A stretch of 32,058 nucleotides of DNA from Nitrosopumilaceae archaeon (GTDB taxonomy: Archaea > Thermoproteota > Nitrososphaeria > Nitrososphaerales > Nitrosopumilaceae): contig JAGWAX010000020.1 of NCBI GenBank assembly GCA_021296175.1, positions 555 to 32,612 of the forward strand, given 5' to 3'. Made by a program: the position numbers and the translations under genes. The notes below the pieces were generated by a model that saw only the letters and a program-made list of their open reading frames with translations, did no database searches and was not told the origin of the DNA. Shown here piece after piece: positions 7,651-26,443 of the stretch (the first letter of the stretch is position 1; each line of letters starts with the position of its first letter).

Positions 7651-10600
7651 ATGGCGATTTCATACACCACCGCCGCTCAAACATTTTTTAAGATGCGCAT
7701 ACGCGTCATACCTGTGGTGGGCATGCGCAGGCCTGATATCGGATCCCGCCCTGCCGTAATTATGATCGCAGCCGCGGCCATAACCGCGGCCGTATACATG
7801 GGCGGACTCGATTATGCCGAGGCGGCAGCCGGCACGTATGTAGACAGCGTCACGTTCCACAAGCAAGGCGACCGTGATGCCATAACACGGTCAATAATTG
7901 ATGGCGAGCTTGACATGTCTTATCTTGACATATCGCGTGAAAACGCCCGGGACATACGCGACGGCGGGCATGACGTCTACAGGTCCGTGGGCGGAACCAT
8001 ATATGGCCTGTACGTGAACCCGGCAGATGACCATACCCGGGGGTTCAACCCGTTCTCAGAGCAGAAAGCCCGCTTTGCGCTCAACTATGTGCTTGACAGA
8101 ACCCACGTGGTAGAAAACGTGCTGAGTTCCGGCTCAGAAATGTATTCTGCATTGACCCCGTACAGTTACGACTATCCGCTTGTATACAGGTATATGGAAT
8201 CGTTTGAATTTGATCATGATCTGGCCCGTGCCGACTCCTTGTTCAGAGACGCCCTTGAGCCGCACGGGGCCGCAAAGTCCGATGGCATGTGGCGCCACGG
8301 TGGAGCGCCAGTAGAGGTTACGGTCTTTATACGCGATGATGACCATGTTCGACTCGCAATTGGCGAGCGCCTTTCAGACGACCTTGGCAAGCTGGGCTTT
8401 AAGGTAAGCAGGACGTACGGCGACCTCCGGGAGGCATTTGCCACCGTATACTCCACCGATCCGGCCGACCAGGAATGGCACGTGTATACGGGCGCTTGGG
8501 GTAATTCTCGGGAGAGTAAGTATGACGATATTTCACTTGCGTTGTACTACGCACCGTGGACCGGATCCCTTCCCGGGGGCGGCGAGGATCACGTGTGGAA
8601 CTATGAACACGACCTTCTTGATCGGCTGACATACACGCTGGCCGCTGGCCGATACAGCTCAAACGAGGTGAGGGCGGAGTTGGTTTATGCCGCAAACCAT
8701 TACGGGGTACTGGAATCCGTCCGGGTGTTCATTGCGATCGGCGACGAGCTCTATCCGGTGCGTGGCGATGTCACCGGCGTTGTAAACCCGATGGGCGCAG
8801 GCATTGCAAACAGGTACACGCCGATCAACGCGCAGCTCTCTGGCGGCGACACAAACCTGGACATTGGAACGCGCCACGTTGCGCAGAGCTCGTGGAACCC
8901 AGTGGGCGGATTCCTTGACACGTACAGCTTTTACGCATGGTCACTGCTCCGTGACAGAGCCCATGTTCATGACCCCCACGACGGGACGATAATTGACAGC
9001 AGGAACATGCTGGTCTCAGTCGATACCAACGGGCCCGAGGGCCGGATCGAGATACCCGACGGTGCGGTCGCTTGGAGCGTGGATGCACACGAGTGGGCCG
9101 CGCCGGGTGACTCGCATGCCACAAGCAGGGTGACGTTTGATCTCAAGTTCTCAAACTGGCACCATGGCGCTCCCGTCGACATCAACGACGTGTTGTACCC
9201 GCTTACGTTCAACAGAGAGCATACGATGAGGCACGACGGGGACGAGGACATATTCGCATCCGACCCTTACGCGGTGGTATCCCCATACATCGACGTGACT
9301 GCAGTCAACGTGCTTGATGACGATACCATCGAGGTGTATCTGGATTATTGGAACGAGGATGACGCCGTAATTGCAGCCGTCGCCGGGCTCTGGCCCGCCA
9401 TTCCATGGGAGGTCTACCATGCCATGGACGAGGCAGTACACGAGGGCGTGTCCCACTGGTACTCGGCCGACGCGCGCCACCACGGGCAGAGCTGGATTGA
9501 CATGCTCAGCGAGGAGGACTCTATAATGGCGCGGGATCACCTACATGGTCACAAGGACGCGAACCACGAGCGGCACATACCTGAATTCCTGTACCAGAAC
9601 AGGAACACCGAGTATGTAAATGCCAGATATGACGCCGCCATATCCTGGATAGACGAGATGAACCACATGGCGGTGAGCAACGGGCCGTTCTATCTTGACT
9701 CAATGGAGCGGGACGATTCGGGCTCAATCACCCGCATGACGTTAAAGCAGTTTGATGACTCTACATATCCGTTTGAGGCAGGCACGTGGGGCTCGTTTGC
9801 AGCCACAAGGGAACCGCTGTCTGACGTGGTTGTCGTTGGATCCCTCGTCTCAGAGACGGGAGGCGCAGACCGGTATGGGGAGGAGATAAGGGCGGCATCT
9901 GATCTTGCCGTCTTGCACTTTAACGAGTACCTGGAGGTGCGCGGGGAGGCATGGTCGCTTGGCCTGCATCCCCTTGACACTGAGACCAGTCCCGGCGTCG
10001 CCCTTGGTCATCTCAAGACCCTGAGCGACTCGGGAATCAAGATTGTCGACGGGCCGGCCGTGGACATAATCACTCCCGAGATGCTTGCATATGCAGACGA
10101 CAATGACATGACGCTTGTGAGCTGCTGCTCGTCCGTGCCGTCAAATGCAAAGCCCGGCGATGCCCTGTTTAGGATGCTGCCCGACCAGAATACGCATGCA
10201 CGTGAGATTGCAGACGTGATGCTGCACCCATCCGAGTCCATAGACCGCATTGTCCCGGTGGGAATAAAGGCCCCTTGGGCCGAAGAGCTGCTAGATGCCA
10301 CAAAGTCACACTTTGAGCGCAGGGGCGGGGTGTCTGACGACGCGATATTTTATGAGACTGACGCGGGCGAGGACATGAGCGGCGCCGCATCCCGCCTTGC
10401 ATCGCAGGTCATGCAGGCAGTTGCGCAGGGCAGGGCGTCTGACGTGGCAGTGCTGTATGTCGGATTCGGCGAGGGTCCAGAATTCCTAAAGGCGGCTGCC
10501 CAGCATGACGTGCTGCACAAGGTGCGGTGGTTTGGGGCGGACCAGAACACGGCCAGGCCGAACATCGGAGATGATGCTGTAGCAGCCGCCTTTGCAGACG

Positions 10601-11022
10601 CCGTGGGATTTACGGTGGTGCAGCCTACGATACCTGCCACGATTGCCAGCAGGTATGCAAACTCTGAGATACAAGAACACCTGGGGTCGCTTGGGATAAC
10701 ACCCAGTCCGTACTCAAGCTATGAATACTCTGCAATCTGGGTGCTGGGACTCTCCATGCTCGAGGCCAGGAGCGCAGAGTCGGCCGATGTCAGGGAGCAG
10801 ATGCATCCCACCGCGATGAGGTATGTGGGGACGATAGGCTCGACTGAACTCAATGGGAACGGGGATCTTGCAGACACGCATTATGCCACATACCAGTTTG
10901 TAGCAGATGCGCCACCACCACCACCACCACCGCTATCTGACCCCGGACAGCTGCAACTGTTCTCAGAGTCATCGAGTCCCGCGTGGACTCGATATGTGCC
11001 GCCACCCCCGATCTGCAGATAG
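7651..11022 (+). CDS. Secreted fusion: family-5 (oligopeptide-type) solute-binding domain + branched-chain amino-acid receptor-like (Peripla_BP_6/LivJ type) domain
   Basis: N-terminal hydrophobic signal; SBP_bac_5-like text (GLYVNPADDHTRGFNPFSEQKARFALNYVLDRTHVVENVL...); C-terminal half with LivJ-type text (GLHPLDTETSPGVALGHLKTLSDSGIKIVDGP...DALFRMLPDQNTHAREIADVM...VLYVGFGEGPEFLKAAAQ...). The start may be the ATG at 7693. Confidence 0.8.
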   Translation: MAISYTTAAQTFFKMRIRVIPVVGMRRPDIGSRPAVIMIAAAAITAAVYMGGLDYAEAAAGTYVDSVTFHKQGDRDAITRSIIDGELDMSYLDISRENARDIRDGGHDVYRSVGGTIYGLYVNPADDHTRGFNPFSEQKARFALNYVLDRTHVVENVLSSGSEMYSALTPYSYDYPLVYRYMESFEFDHDLARADSLFRDALEPHGAAKSDGMWRHGGAPVEVTVFIRDDDHVRLAIGERLSDDLGKLGFKVSRTYGDLREAFATVYSTDPADQEWHVYTGAWGNSRESKYDDISLALYYAPWTGSLPGGGEDHVWNYEHDLLDRLTYTLAAGRYSSNEVRAELVYAANHYGVLESVRVFIAIGDELYPVRGDVTGVVNPMGAGIANRYTPINAQLSGGDTNLDIGTRHVAQSSWNPVGGFLDTYSFYAWSLLRDRAHVHDPHDGTIIDSRNMLVSVDTNGPEGRIEIPDGAVAWSVDAHEWAAPGDSHATSRVTFDLKFSNWHHGAPVDINDVLYPLTFNREHTMRHDGDEDIFASDPYAVVSPYIDVTAVNVLDDDTIEVYLDYWNEDDAVIAAVAGLWPAIPWEVYHAMDEAVHEGVSHWYSADARHHGQSWIDMLSEEDSIMARDHLHGHKDANHERHIPEFLYQNRNTEYVNARYDAAISWIDEMNHMAVSNGPFYLDSMERDDSGSITRMTLKQFDDSTYPFEAGTWGSFAATREPLSDVVVVGSLVSETGGADRYGEEIRAASDLAVLHFNEYLEVRGEAWSLGLHPLDTETSPGVALGHLKTLSDSGIKIVDGPAVDIITPEMLAYADDNDMTLVSCCSSVPSNAKPGDALFRMLPDQNTHAREIADVMLHPSESIDRIVPVGIKAPWAEELLDATKSHFERRGGVSDDAIFYETDAGEDMSGAASRLASQVMQAVAQGRASDVAVLYVGFGEGPEFLKAAAQHDVLHKVRWFGADQNTARPNIGDDAVAAAFADAVGFTVVQPTIPATIASRYANSEIQEHLGSLGITPSPYSSYEYSAIWVLGLSMLEARSAESADVREQMHPTAMRYVGTIGSTELNGNGDLADTHYATYQFVADAPPPPPPPLSDPGQLQLFSESSSPAWTRYVPPPPICR

Positions 11023-15163: not shown

Positions 15164-16438
15164 ATGTTGCATGCGAGCATCCTGCCTATGATCACCGTGG
15201 TGGCAGTGACGGCGATCGCCGCCGCCTGCCTCGTACCGTCCGCCATACCCGCCCACGCGCAGGCCGCCGGATCCCTGCCGGTTCCCGCCGGATTCGTAGA
15301 TCCCGGCACCGACCCCCAGACCTACGTGGACCGGTACAACACGGAACCCTCGTACAAGGAGTGGTTTGATGATAACTATTCACAATATGACTCGATATAC
15401 CACGCGGTGGGACTTCCCGACCCCGACGCGCCTCCAAGCGAGCCGGAGCCACCCCAGTCCGCAAGGGATGTCGCGGCGCTGGCGCCGTTCGTCGACCCAT
15501 CAGTAGACCCCCAGACCTACGTGGACCGGTACAACACGGAACCCTCGTACAAGGAGTGGTTTGACGCGAACTATCTTGCAGAGTACGGTTCCATATACGA
15601 CGCGGTGGGCACGCTGCTGATACCTGCCAGTTTTGTAGACCTGTCGGTGGATCCACAGACCTACGTGGACAGGTACAACACGGAACCCTCGTACAAGGAG
15701 TGGTTTGACGCGAACTACCCGAAGTATGATTCCATATACCACGCAGTCGGGCTGCCTGATCCCGCCGGCGGGCCTTCCACTGACGATAACGGCGGCGACG
15801 CCCCTGCCGAGCCGGAGCTGCCCCCTCCCGTGGTGGCCCCGGGAGTCGAGCTTCCGCCCGGGCTTGATCTAAAGCCGGGCCAAGAGTACGGCGAGTGCGG
15901 CGAGGGGACCGAGCTTGTCAACGGATACTGTATCATAATCGGGACCGAGCCGCCCGAGCCTCCGACAGTCTCCACGACGGGGACTGGCGCGGCCGGCAGT
16001 GACGACCAGAGGGGCGGAGGGTGCCTCATTGCGACTGCCGCGTACGGCTCTGAGATGGCGCCCCAGGTGCAGCTGCTCCGGGAGATACGGGACGGCCGGC
16101 TCGCGCAGACGCATGCCGGCTCGTCGTTTGTGGAGGGGTTCAACGCCGTATACTATTCGTTCTCGCCGCACGTGGCAGACTATGAGCGCGAGAATCCCGC
16201 ATTCAGGGAGATGGTCAGGACGCTCCTGACCCCGATGCTCTACACGCTGGGCATCATGGAGCACGCCGGCTCCGAGTCAGAAGTACTGGCGTACGGCATT
16301 GCTGCATTGCTTGCAATCTTGATGATGTACGTGGGGGTGCCCGTGCTGGCGGCGTCATACATGCATCGGTATTATGCGCGATATGTGGGAGACGGCGCGA
16401 TCACGCACGGGGGCCAGAGTAGGAGGGAGTCATGCTGA
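15164..16438 (+). CDS. Secreted repeat protein: three 'DPQTYVDRYNTEPSYKEWFD' modules plus a CLIATAAYG (CFI-box-like) membrane-anchored C-terminus
   Basis: Signal peptide, three near-identical repeats, EYGECGEGTELVNGYCIII segment, GGCLIATAAYGSEMAPQVQLLREIRDG motif and a C-terminal TM (AYGIAALLAILMMYVGVPVLAASY). Confidence 0.85.
   Translation: MLHASILPMITVVAVTAIAAACLVPSAIPAHAQAAGSLPVPAGFVDPGTDPQTYVDRYNTEPSYKEWFDDNYSQYDSIYHAVGLPDPDAPPSEPEPPQSARDVAALAPFVDPSVDPQTYVDRYNTEPSYKEWFDANYLAEYGSIYDAVGTLLIPASFVDLSVDPQTYVDRYNTEPSYKEWFDANYPKYDSIYHAVGLPDPAGGPSTDDNGGDAPAEPELPPPVVAPGVELPPGLDLKPGQEYGECGEGTELVNGYCIIIGTEPPEPPTVSTTGTGAAGSDDQRGGGCLIATAAYGSEMAPQVQLLREIRDGRLAQTHAGSSFVEGFNAVYYSFSPHVADYERENPAFREMVRTLLTPMLYTLGIMEHAGSESEVLAYGIAALLAILMMYVGVPVLAASYMHRYYARYVGDGAITHGGQSRRESC
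15293..15751 (+). repeat. Three copies of the YVDRYNTEPSYKEWFD module (15293-15412, 15488-15610, 15632-15751)
   Basis: Near-identical DNA core cagacctacgtgga[cc]ggtacaacacggaaccctcgtacaaggagtggtttga in each copy. Confidence 0.95.
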
Positions 16439-19400
16439 TGAAAACCGGCCGCAATGGTACAAGACGAGCCCTGCCGACCCCCGGGAGTCGCATGCTCATA
16501 GTTGTAGTCGTAGTCGCTGCAGTCGCGCTCGCGGCCGCATCGCTGGCATCCGGCGTTTATGCCGCGCCGGAGTTTGCCCACATATTTGATGATGACGACA
16601 TAGACGGCGGGGCAATCGACGGCCCCTACGACGTCGAGCTGAGAAGGGACGGAGGGGACATCTACGTTGTGGAAAAGGGCAAGGACCGGGTCAGCATATT
16701 TCGGGAGCACGACAGGTTTGACGAGCGGTTTGGCTCTTCCGGCAGCCGCGACCTGCAGTTCTCCGACCCGGTATCGATCGCGAGGTATGACCTCGACTTT
16801 TTTGTGCTTGACGCGGGGAACGATCGGGTCCAGGTGGTGGACGATGACGGCGAATTCCAGCGCGAGTTCGGCTCGGACAGGCTGAGTGATCCAACGGACA
16901 TCGCAGTGGACACGGCGACCCAGAGGGTGTTCATATCGGATGAAAGCGGTGACAGGATACATGTGTTCTCCACGGACGGCACGTACAAGTACGACATTAC
17001 AAAGTTCAACAAGACCGAGATGTCGAATCCCTCGGGGCTCGTAGTCGATGAGATAGGCAGGTACCTGTACGTGTCGGATACCGAAAAGCACCGCATAGGC
17101 ATATTCAGCATACTGACTGAGAGCCGAGAGTGCCACGACGGTACGGTGGAGGCGGCCCCGGGGATCTGCTACGTGGGGGAGTTCGGCGGCGCGGGCAGCG
17201 GGAACGGCACATTTGCCAGTCCGACCGGGCTTGCAATAGACAAGAAGAAGACCACGCCCAACAGGGGGGATCTGTACGTGTCGGACACCAACAACGCCCG
17301 CATACAGATCTTCAGCTTTCTTGAGAAGGGGGGAGACGGGTCGTGCCCCGACGGGACGCAGAACCTGACTGACGTGGTATGCTATGTGGGCGAGTACGGC
17401 TCTTTCGGCGACGACGACGGCAAGTTCAGGTCACCGCACGGGATTGCGATTGATACAACGAACCGGCTGCTGTACGTGGCAGACGCCGGCAACGACCGCG
17501 TACAGGTGATAAATCTTGATGGGCAGTCCACTTCATCCTCATCCTCATCCTCATCCTCATCATCGAAGTCCACTACTTCCTCTTCCTCTTCTTCTTCCAC
17601 CACCACCACCACCGTCCTAAAGCCTGACCCCCCGCGCAACGTCCGGGCGGTCCCGATCTCCCCGACGTCCATACTCGTCGACTGGGATGAGCCGAGGCAA
17701 AGGGGAGATGCCGTCCGGCCCATAATCGGATATGCAGTAGAGTACACGTCCAGGACCGCCACGGGATCCTCCGTGACTGACTTTACGGTGGTCACGTCAA
17801 AGACCAGCACGAATGCGACTGCGCTCTACCACACCAACCTTGACCCTGGCACCACCTACACCTACAGGGTCTCTGCCATCGCGCAAGGCGCGGACGCCGT
17901 CAGCAGCCCGTCGCTGACTGCATCGGCAAAACCTGCGGATACTGACAAGCCCACCATGGTTGACATCGTGGCGGTGTCCCCCACCCAGATAAAGATGACA
18001 TGGCTGCCGCCCTCAGACACGTTCAGGCAGCCGCTCAACGGCTATGTCGTGGAAGAGTGGCTCGGCGGAGATAAATATGACCCAATAAAGGACGGCGAGG
18101 TGGGCAGGAGCGAGCTCTCGTTCCTGTACAGGGTGGATACGAACAAGGAGAACAAGTTCCGCGTGTACGCCCAGATTGGGTTTGCAAGCACGCCGCCCTC
18201 GGATCCCGTCACTATCAGGGCGATCGACTCGTCGTTCCATACCGGCGTAATCGAGCCCGATACCGTGGGATTTGTGACGGTGGCGGCGCCCAGCCCGCCG
18301 ATCAAGGTGAGTGCAGAGCCGGTAAATGACAGGCACATAGACGTAACCTGGAGCCCGCCCGCCGACGACGGCAACCTGGCCGTCACCGGATACACGGTAG
18401 AGGCCAAAAAGAAGGGCTCGTCCTCGTTTTCGGAGATTGCCAGCGGCGTGACGGGGGCAAAGTACGCGCACAGGGGGATCGAGTCCGGCTCCGAGTACAC
18501 CTACCGCGTATACGCGACAAACGCAGAGGGGACAAGCGGGGCCTCAAACGAGAGTACCGCTACGGCCCGCATAGTCGGGCTAGTGATAAACTCTGTCGGC
18601 TCGCTGACAGTCGACGAGGGCAAACCAGCGACGTTTATAGTGACGGTGTCCGGCGACGCCTCCTCCGGCGCCTCTTTCTCGCTTGCCAACGAGCCAGAGG
18701 GGGCCAGCATCGTGCCACGGACGGGGGCCTTTTCGTGGACGCCCTCGTACGACCAGGGCGGCGAGACGTACCGGTTTGACATTGTGGCGGCCCGGGGCGA
18801 GCACAGCGACAAAAAGACCATCCGCATAAGGGTCAACGACGTGCCGGATGCCGGTATGGAGCAGCAGCAGCAAACAAGATCCGAAGCTCCAAAGGACGTG
18901 CAGCAGCCTGATGCCGGCACCGGCCTGGCGCCGTTCGTCGACGAGTCAGTCGACCCCCAGACCTACGTGGACAGGTACAGCGCGGAGCCCTCGTACAAGG
19001 AGTGGTTTGACGCAGAGTACGGCTCGATATACGACGCGGTGGGCGTGCTGCAGGTGCCCGCTAGTTTCGTAGACGAGTCAGTCGACCCCCAGACCTACGT
19101 GGACAGGTACAACGCGGAGCCCTCGTACAAGGAGTGGTTTGACGCTCACTACTCGGAGTATGATTCCATATACCATGCCGTGGGACTCGACGATCCTGCC
19201 GCAGCGGACGCCGCTACCGACGGCGACGGCGCCGTTGGCGGTGATGGTGGTGATGGCGCCACCACCACCACCGAGCCGACTCAGAATGAAACCGGTTCAG
19301 AAGAGCCAGTGGACAAACCCGCGCGCCCTGACCTCGGGCTTGACGTCCCACTCGCGCCGTTCGTCGACGAGTCAGTAGACCCCCAGACCTACGTGGACAG

Positions 19401-19722
19401 GTACAGCGCGGAGCCCTCGTACAAGGAGTGGTTTGACGAGAACTATGCGGACGAATTAGGACTGTTTGAGATCCCCGCGCCGTTCGTTGACGAGTCAGTA
19501 GACCCCCAGACCTACGTGGACCGGTACAACTCGGAGCCCGCGTACAAGGAATGGTTTGATGAGAACTATTCGGAATACTTCTCGATATACCACGCCGTGG
19601 GACTGCCAGAGCCCGGCGCGGACGACACGGAGGAACCCGAACCGCCTGCAAAGCAGTACGGCATATGCGGGCCCGGTACGAAGCTGATCGAGGGCGTCTG
19701 CACGATCATAGAGGATGAGTAG
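16432..19722 (+). CDS. Large secreted multidomain protein: NHL/beta-propeller repeats, Ser-rich linker, FN3-like domains, Ig/cadherin-like domain, four YVDRYN-EPSYKEWFD modules
   Basis: Signal peptide; NHL-type blocks (PTDIAVDTATQRVFISDESGDRIHVFS; PHGIAIDTTNRLLYVADAGNDRVQVINLDG); S/T tract; FN3-like PPRNVRAVPISPTSILVDWDEP...; VDEGKPATFIVTVSGD...GAFSWTPSYDQGGETYRFDIVA; four repeats; terminal CGPGTKLIEGVCTII. Confidence 0.88.
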   Translation: MLMKTGRNGTRRALPTPGSRMLIVVVVVAAVALAAASLASGVYAAPEFAHIFDDDDIDGGAIDGPYDVELRRDGGDIYVVEKGKDRVSIFREHDRFDERFGSSGSRDLQFSDPVSIARYDLDFFVLDAGNDRVQVVDDDGEFQREFGSDRLSDPTDIAVDTATQRVFISDESGDRIHVFSTDGTYKYDITKFNKTEMSNPSGLVVDEIGRYLYVSDTEKHRIGIFSILTESRECHDGTVEAAPGICYVGEFGGAGSGNGTFASPTGLAIDKKKTTPNRGDLYVSDTNNARIQIFSFLEKGGDGSCPDGTQNLTDVVCYVGEYGSFGDDDGKFRSPHGIAIDTTNRLLYVADAGNDRVQVINLDGQSTSSSSSSSSSSSKSTTSSSSSSSTTTTTVLKPDPPRNVRAVPISPTSILVDWDEPRQRGDAVRPIIGYAVEYTSRTATGSSVTDFTVVTSKTSTNATALYHTNLDPGTTYTYRVSAIAQGADAVSSPSLTASAKPADTDKPTMVDIVAVSPTQIKMTWLPPSDTFRQPLNGYVVEEWLGGDKYDPIKDGEVGRSELSFLYRVDTNKENKFRVYAQIGFASTPPSDPVTIRAIDSSFHTGVIEPDTVGFVTVAAPSPPIKVSAEPVNDRHIDVTWSPPADDGNLAVTGYTVEAKKKGSSSFSEIASGVTGAKYAHRGIESGSEYTYRVYATNAEGTSGASNESTATARIVGLVINSVGSLTVDEGKPATFIVTVSGDASSGASFSLANEPEGASIVPRTGAFSWTPSYDQGGETYRFDIVAARGEHSDKKTIRIRVNDVPDAGMEQQQQTRSEAPKDVQQPDAGTGLAPFVDESVDPQTYVDRYSAEPSYKEWFDAEYGSIYDAVGVLQVPASFVDESVDPQTYVDRYNAEPSYKEWFDAHYSEYDSIYHAVGLDDPAAADAATDGDGAVGGDGGDGATTTTEPTQNETGSEEPVDKPARPDLGLDVPLAPFVDESVDPQTYVDRYSAEPSYKEWFDENYADELGLFEIPAPFVDESVDPQTYVDRYNSEPAYKEWFDENYSEYFSIYHAVGLPEPGADDTEEPEPPAKQYGICGPGTKLIEGVCTIIEDE
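18934..19602 (+). repeat. Four copies of the YVDRYN-EPSYKEWFD module (18934-19044, 19066-19185, 19360-19461, 19483-19602)
   Basis: FVDESVDPQTYVDRY[SN][AS]EP[SA]YKEWFD... repeated four times, with DNA conserved relative to the copies at 15293-15751. Confidence 0.95.
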
Positions 19723-24994: not shown

Positions 24995-26443
24995 ATGCAC
25001 GGCCCTGCTGCAGGCAGCCCCCCGGTACTGCCCTCCGGAAAGATGGTCATGTGGGCGCTCGCGCAGGTCGTGCGCGGGCCCGGCAGCACCATCGCCGGGG
25101 TGGAGGCCGCCCGGGGCAGGACGTGCGGCAGGGGGGACCGGACGCAGCGCATCCACGAGGATGCCGCCGTGTGGCACGGCGCCGGCAAGGTCGTCGAGCG
25201 GGTGGCCGGGCTCCTGAACCTTGACCGCGGTACGGTGCTCGGAGGCGGCAGCATACTGGCAGTCGACTTTTACCAGTCCGTCATGGCCCAGATCTCGGCG
25301 CTCCGCGCCAAGGGATGCATCGCGGACTGGAGGGCCGGCGGGCGCCTCGGGGTCTTCCGCTTGGCGGATCCCTCAAGGCTGCCGGTCATCGACCCGGGTG
25401 AACTGCGCCCCCCGTCGTACGCCGAGGTATCCCCCGACACGTCGCATGCCGGGCTGACCAAGAGCTTTCTGTCCATACTGGGTCACGGCTCAAAGGCCAA
25501 CACGTACAAGTTTGCGCTTGCGCGCGCCATCTTGGAGTACTGCCAAGGTGAGTGCCGCGGCGCGGGCCGGGACAGGGAGGAGCAGTCGGCCCTGCGCATA
25601 CCATACGAGTATTTGGCCGACAAGTTCCTCAAATACTACTGGCACCAAGAGTACATACTGCACATGCGCCAGTACTATGATGCAAAGCATACGCCGCACG
25701 CCATAACAAAGCTCAGGGGCGTATTCGGGGATGGCACGCCCGGCGACTATTCGCTTCTTGACAAAAAAGACACGGACAGGGCCAGGAGGCTCATACTGAA
25801 AAGCGTGTTCGGGCACGCCAGATCCAAGACCTCGATAGTGGTGCCACGCTTTCAGAAAATTCCGGTCGGAAACCGGACGGTGGAGGTGCGGTCGTTTTAC
25901 GACTATGACGACGACGAGCAGGCCATCAAACTGAAGCCGGAGGCATTCGAGTTCTTCTCAAAGAACTATGCGCTGCTCTCAAAGGCGGTCCTTGTCGAAT
26001 GGACAAAGTTCCTCGAGCCGATAAACCCGACCCTGCCGAGGCTTCTGACTAAAATCGAGAGGATGAGCGCAAAGAAGCAGGCGCTGACCAAATACCGCAG
26101 CATGCTCGCCCCGTTCACGGACTGCTGCTTTTACTGCCGCAGCATGCTCGAGCCCGGCTACGTGCAGGTGGACCACCTGATCCCGTGGACGTACATATAC
26201 GACGACAACGCGTGGAACCTGGTGCTGGCCTGCCAGTCGTGCAACTGCAGGAAGAGCAACTCGCTTCCTGGGGACGAGTTCCGCGACGGGCTCGTGGAGA
26301 GAAACCGCAGGCACCGCGGCGAGATCCCCCCGCTTGGGGCGTCCCTTGACATGCTTGACCGGGGCAGGGGGTGGGAGGCCGAGATCCACGCCCACTACCA
26401 GACGTGCCTCGAGTACGGCTTTGGCACGGTAAACCTCCCCTGA
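24995..26443 (+). CDS. HNH endonuclease-domain protein
   Basis: C-terminal zinc HNH signature: CCFYCRSMLEPGYVQVDHLIPWTYIYDDNAWNLVLACQSCNCRKSN. Long N-terminal region without a recognised family. Confidence 0.85.
   Translation: MHGPAAGSPPVLPSGKMVMWALAQVVRGPGSTIAGVEAARGRTCGRGDRTQRIHEDAAVWHGAGKVVERVAGLLNLDRGTVLGGGSILAVDFYQSVMAQISALRAKGCIADWRAGGRLGVFRLADPSRLPVIDPGELRPPSYAEVSPDTSHAGLTKSFLSILGHGSKANTYKFALARAILEYCQGECRGAGRDREEQSALRIPYEYLADKFLKYYWHQEYILHMRQYYDAKHTPHAITKLRGVFGDGTPGDYSLLDKKDTDRARRLILKSVFGHARSKTSIVVPRFQKIPVGNRTVEVRSFYDYDDDEQAIKLKPEAFEFFSKNYALLSKAVLVEWTKFLEPINPTLPRLLTKIERMSAKKQALTKYRSMLAPFTDCCFYCRSMLEPGYVQVDHLIPWTYIYDDNAWNLVLACQSCNCRKSNSLPGDEFRDGLVERNRRHRGEIPPLGASLDMLDRGRGWEAEIHAHYQTCLEYGFGTVNLP

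Follow-up and report, generated by a model that had tools for sequence, protein, structure and literature searches.

The window analysed here, a 32,058-nucleotide stretch of DNA from a Nitrosopumilaceae archaeon, encodes a receptor in which two unrelated ligand-binding folds are fused, and the first of them, judged by its sequence, is a circularly permuted form of the canonical OppA domain. The protein is specified by a single unbroken open reading frame of 1123 amino acids (7651 to 11022, plus strand, including the TAG stop codon), with the order signal peptide, SBP_bac_5 (SBP5) domain, LivK-like Peripla_BP_6 domain, and Pro-rich tail. The interpretation that we favor, and consider reasonably probable, is that of a secreted, two-headed receptor lacking an anchor, which would operate in the pseudo-periplasmic space, feed unlinked Opp and Liv transporters, and be retained or modified through its C-terminal Cys-Arg (CR) tail.

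A homolog at locus L067 begins at a position that aligns to residue 30 of the listed reading frame, which makes Met25 (7723) the probable true start; from there a cleavable signal peptide would extend to 7830 on the plus strand, and inspection of the sequence places its end at about residue 60 (...AEAAA/GTY). The only Cys residues are 825, 826, and 1122. There is no lipobox Cys, since the first Cys is residue 825, and neither an N-terminal anchor nor a C-terminal transmembrane (TM) segment was found in the fused receptor; the single hydrophobic segment of the L067 homolog is its signal peptide. A Pfam search matched SBP_bac_5 (PF00496) to residues 62–289 (71.2 bits; curated cut-off 32.4), and both Peripla_BP_6 (46.4 bits; cut-off 31.7) and ANF_receptor (54.9 bits; cut-off 25.4) to residues 727–1083, with positions 2–331 of the 343 in the Peripla_BP_6 profile falling on residues 727–1076 and thus covering the whole domain. 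The HMM search proposed in an earlier note on this DNA therefore bears out its claim of two unrelated binding folds in one chain, as opposed to a single-fold protein. The end coordinate given there (10910) was too short, omitting a tail of about 38 amino acids, and its description of the first ~700 residues as a plain family-5 binding protein holds for the family, but not for the order of the two halves, which is reversed. Structure prediction from two sequences gave a mean pLDDT of 31, too low for use.

As the earlier note had stated, the receptor has no adjacent permease or ATPase: a scan of 19 window genes revealed no such ABC gene. Its neighbors include replication, helicase, dehydrogenase, NHL/fn3, thioredoxin, nucleoside diphosphate kinase, and succinate dehydrogenase genes. 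Other products of the window are a secreted-type repeat protein with no Pfam match (15164 to 16438), whose relative at L067 (7569 to 9230) carries FVDP...TYVDRY...EPSYREWFD repeats, a 1096-amino-acid protein that combines NHL repeats with fibronectin type III domains (16432 to 19722), and a 482-amino-acid protein with an HNH_4/HNH endonuclease domain close to its C-terminus (24995 to 26443). The ABC partners that the note had suggested seeking elsewhere are present, unlinked, in the same genome: an Opp permease pair on contig C3, two oligo_HPY ATPases on contigs C59 and C49, and two Liv permease sets on contigs C13 and C154. In other Thermoproteota, the gene for the permuted receptor often adjoins two permease-like genes, and several such loci (L223–L226 and others) add two ATPase genes with LSGG motifs, giving the layout SBP-permease-permease-ATPase-ATPase. 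The C3 Opp permeases are closer to the permeases of these operons than the other Opp-type pair compared. Given that the permuted form sits in ordinary opp operons across the Thermoproteota, it is probably a working importer receptor; with operonic relatives and unlinked transporters in its own genome, the fused protein gives little support to the suggestion that it is something other than a conventional importer. In several AOA, a gene for a DUF2070 membrane protein lies near that for a TM-anchored permuted SBP5 protein and is a possible functional partner (L037 6882–8639 and L045 5860–7608, by Pfam; L046 5375–7141 and L048 5995–7815, by similar N-termini). Liv transporters and an expressed LivK have been reported in sponge AOA (PMC6790972, PMC7848895), and from such features we infer that the organism studied here may be a sponge symbiont.

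The Pro-rich linker and tail (residues 1085–1120; 10903 to 11010, plus strand) differs in length from species to species in the alignment and is followed by Ile-Cys-Arg (residues 1121–1123; 11011 to 11019, plus strand). Comparison with other proteins identifies these last residues as an xCR-COOH end; the L067 homolog terminates in VCR, though its preceding tail has diverged. At least 21 secreted proteins of the window's own genome (G000) and two others, G243 and G251, end in exactly xCR. The set comprises permuted SBP5 proteins, SBP5-LivK fusions, single and tandem LivK proteins, an SBP_bac_3 protein, and a vanadium-haloperoxidase-like protein, and several members have no Cys other than the penultimate one. 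Cys occupies position −2 in 29 of 544 open reading frames of these three genomes, where its occurrence at the other 14 near-terminal positions would predict about 5.7, although these counts come from sampled stretches, some of them picked for holding binding proteins, and the frequency is not a genome-wide rate. Neither an xCR end nor Cys at −2 occurs in any of 103 open reading frames of related genomes, and xCR is missing from those paralogs of the three xCR-bearing genomes that are TM-anchored or N-anchored. We rejected the idea that the common ends stem from one DNA repeat present in all these genes, because the genes have different Arg codons and different DNA around them; with the Arg and neighboring codons differing, the signature lies at the protein level.

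The vanadium-chloroperoxidase-like protein (VCPO_2nd; L104 12562–13461, minus strand, on contig C107 of the window's genome) ends in ...DLVCR and is not a binding protein. A 520-amino-acid secreted-type protein of G243 (L182 9180–10742, minus strand) has two SBP_bac_3 stretches, a VCR end, and no other Cys. On contig C146 of the window's genome (L040/L108), a LivK-type reading frame reads ...PARVCR and then continues for further codons, while a similar reading frame of G243 (L177) stops at that point (...PARACR-stop). Archaeosortase PGF/PEF-CTERM substrates carry a motif, a TM helix, and basic residues at the C-terminus; the tail of the fused receptor, ...SPAWTRYVPPPPICR, has no hydrophobic helix, which sets it apart from them. 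The literature that we searched, with most subscription journals outside its coverage, contained nothing relevant on a C-terminal Cys sorting signal in archaea. We tentatively suggest, giving the idea slightly less than an even chance, that xCR acts in archaea as a sorting or anchoring signal of a new kind, in which a dedicated enzyme would modify or link the penultimate Cys (through a lipid, disulfide, or S-layer bond) and so replace the membrane anchors on multi-headed permuted-Opp receptors.

According to the interpretation that we favor, the mature receptor would stay in the pseudo-periplasmic space, where the first head would capture peptides, and a small ligand resembling an amino acid would go to the second. 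Each head would then hand its ligand to the matching unlinked transporter, namely the Opp permeases of C3 with the ATPases of C59 and C49, or the Liv systems of C13 and C154, while the xCR tail, as a C-terminal signal for sorting or modification, would take over from the lost anchor in holding such proteins to the cell. Points against it are the lack of linked transporter genes, the loss of a GPxSS-type motif from the second head (see below), and the fact that the permuted fold is deduced from sequence. The same lack of linked ABC genes, the absence of a membrane anchor, unlike in the receptor's relatives, and a tail whose unusual end is common to a haloperoxidase, which is not a transport protein, would also fit a surface scavenging scaffold or sink that is tethered by CR outside the cell and concentrates host-derived peptides without any hand-over. 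We regard such a scaffold as unlikely, however, as the genome possesses unlinked Opp and Liv transporters and the protein's relatives are receptors of operonic importers.

The second head (residues 726–1084; 9826 to 10902, plus strand) gives profile matches to LivJ/LivK structures such as 4n0q, 1usg, and 1z15. Unfused LivK relatives keep a GPxSS-type ligand motif (GPETSS, GPLSS, GPESS), the Ser of which contacts the ligand in LivJ. In all aligned fused copies, this motif is replaced by GPAVD, GPAID, or GPVID; consequently, the second head may recognize a ligand other than an ordinary amino acid, or no ligand at all. The altered pocket motif of the fused clade, along with the higher score of the ANF_receptor profile compared with Peripla_BP_6, could point to an extracellular sensor, in which a host metabolite would be detected by the ANF_receptor-like domain, with the first head as its modulator. 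Yet the protein has no transmembrane or signaling domain, and no kinase or chemotaxis receptor was found adjacent to it among the 19 window genes scanned, making a sensory role improbable.

The evidence that the SBP5 head is permuted comes from sequence alignments to profiles and to a solved OppA. Residues ~61–402 (7831 to 8856, plus strand) correspond to the C-terminal half of canonical OppA, placed first, and residues ~403–722 (8857 to 9816, plus strand) to the N-terminal half, placed second. Thus, PF00496 matches with the second half of its profile (146–352) at residues 62–289 and with the first half (19–101) at residues ~490–600. Against the archaeal OppA 7fi3 (E 2.4e-28), residues 129–304 of the native query align to 7fi3 399–587 and residues 414–707 to 7fi3 22–309 (i-E 2.6e-10 and 7.3e-17 for the two swapped matches). 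When residues 60–402 were moved in silico to behind residues 403–722 and the searches were repeated, the match to 7fi3 became continuous (query 12–565 to 7fi3 22–587, 109 bits), and the PF00496 match merged into one stretch (profile 19–352). Taken alone, the first Pfam match would be compatible with a truncated domain, and hence with a reading in which half a domain precedes a complete but diverged one, the apparent order being an alignment artifact. We rejected this possibility as highly improbable, because the two significant 7fi3 matches are swapped and non-overlapping, with no part of OppA matched twice, because rotation yields a single continuous match, and because the same order is kept in distant relatives encoded in opp operons.

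Full-length matches to the permuted receptor in native order were found throughout the order, class, and phylum. A permuted-family profile made from nine relatives in their native order aligned in that order throughout all 12 of the distant Thermoproteota permuted proteins tested, even in the two whose match was split by extra residues. In contrast, its first part aligned to the second half of each of the 10 canonical SBP5 proteins found in the phylum, and in one of these (L236) profile positions 430–458 aligned close to the start. A rotated version of the profile gave a higher full score in all 10 canonical proteins, albeit by small margins, and broke the permuted proteins into two matches. 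Likewise, positions 237–546 of the 556 in the NCBIfam model Opp4A fell on residues 34–353 of a permuted relative. By these alignments, the Thermoproteota contain both orders of one SBP5 domain side by side. For the most part, Pfam and NCBIfam models recognize just one half of such a permuted receptor, and the permutation is the reason. We found nothing relevant on circularly permuted SBPs in the literature searched, from which most subscription journals were absent.

The earlier note had proposed looking for the same architecture in other Nitrososphaerota, and a search of 95 genomes belonging to the genus found it in three (G000, G243, and G251). The gene is full-length in a Nitrosopumilaceae MAG (isolate p16x60bins.31; L067 238–3516; 1092 amino acids, 82–83% identity); counting this one, the independent MAGs with the fused gene have it at 83% and 55–56% identity. 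Between the two closest copies, dN/dS is 0.18 over the whole length and 0.118 over residues 700–745, which span the domain junction; purifying selection therefore acts across the SBP5-LivK junction. Both this selection and the recurrence of the fusion in independent MAGs exclude, for practical purposes, that two separate genes were merged by a mistake in assembly or sequencing. A majority of the other members of the genus have an SBP5 protein of ~820 amino acids without a LivK domain, and some have separate LivK-type proteins besides. A second, broken copy lies on contig C2 of the window's genome. As the fused copies form one clade in both domain trees (100/99 for the SBP5 part and 100/100 for the LivK part), there was probably a single fusion with duplication afterwards. 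The starting point, within a small Nitrosopumilaceae lineage, would have been a duplicate of the phylum-wide permuted Opp receptor, which would have lost its C-terminal membrane anchor, been joined once to a LivK-type domain, and gained the xCR tail.

A natural permutation of SBP5 across the opp operons of the Thermoproteota would offer a clean test case of how well a two-lobed fold tolerates moved ends. The xCR tail, if a true sorting signal, would represent a new archaeal way of holding proteins at the surface. Two-headed receptors also agree with the published proposal that sponge-associated ammonia oxidizers feed in part on host peptides and amino acids.

Among known proteins, archaeal OppA 7fi3 (an ABC-type dipeptide/oligopeptide receptor of 732 amino acids) belongs to the same SBP5 family, and both of its halves match over most of their length after rotation; however, it has the canonical order, whereas in the window protein the second half comes first, and a LivK domain and a CR tail are added. 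The ~820-amino-acid TM-anchored SBP5 proteins of Nitrosopumilaceae and the Opp receptors of 800–1000 amino acids from other Thermoproteota share the permutation and are colinear over residues ~37–735, but have a small extra C-terminal domain, mostly with a C-terminal TM anchor, and no LivK domain. With respect to the LivK/LivJ receptors, the second head differs by its position behind SBP5. A protein with three LivK domains is known from Ca. Nitrosopumilus ianthellae (PMC6790972), a sponge-associated AOA, and similarly places several binding domains in one secreted chain, although these are repeats of one fold and not two different folds; a chain of 1155 amino acids in G021, a member of the genus studied here (L038 5868–9335, minus strand), with three LivK domains and no xCR, resembles it. 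Tandem substrate-binding domains also occur in GlnPQ-type importers (PMC8025302), where they are joined to the permease, whereas the two different folds of the window protein are joined to no membrane part.
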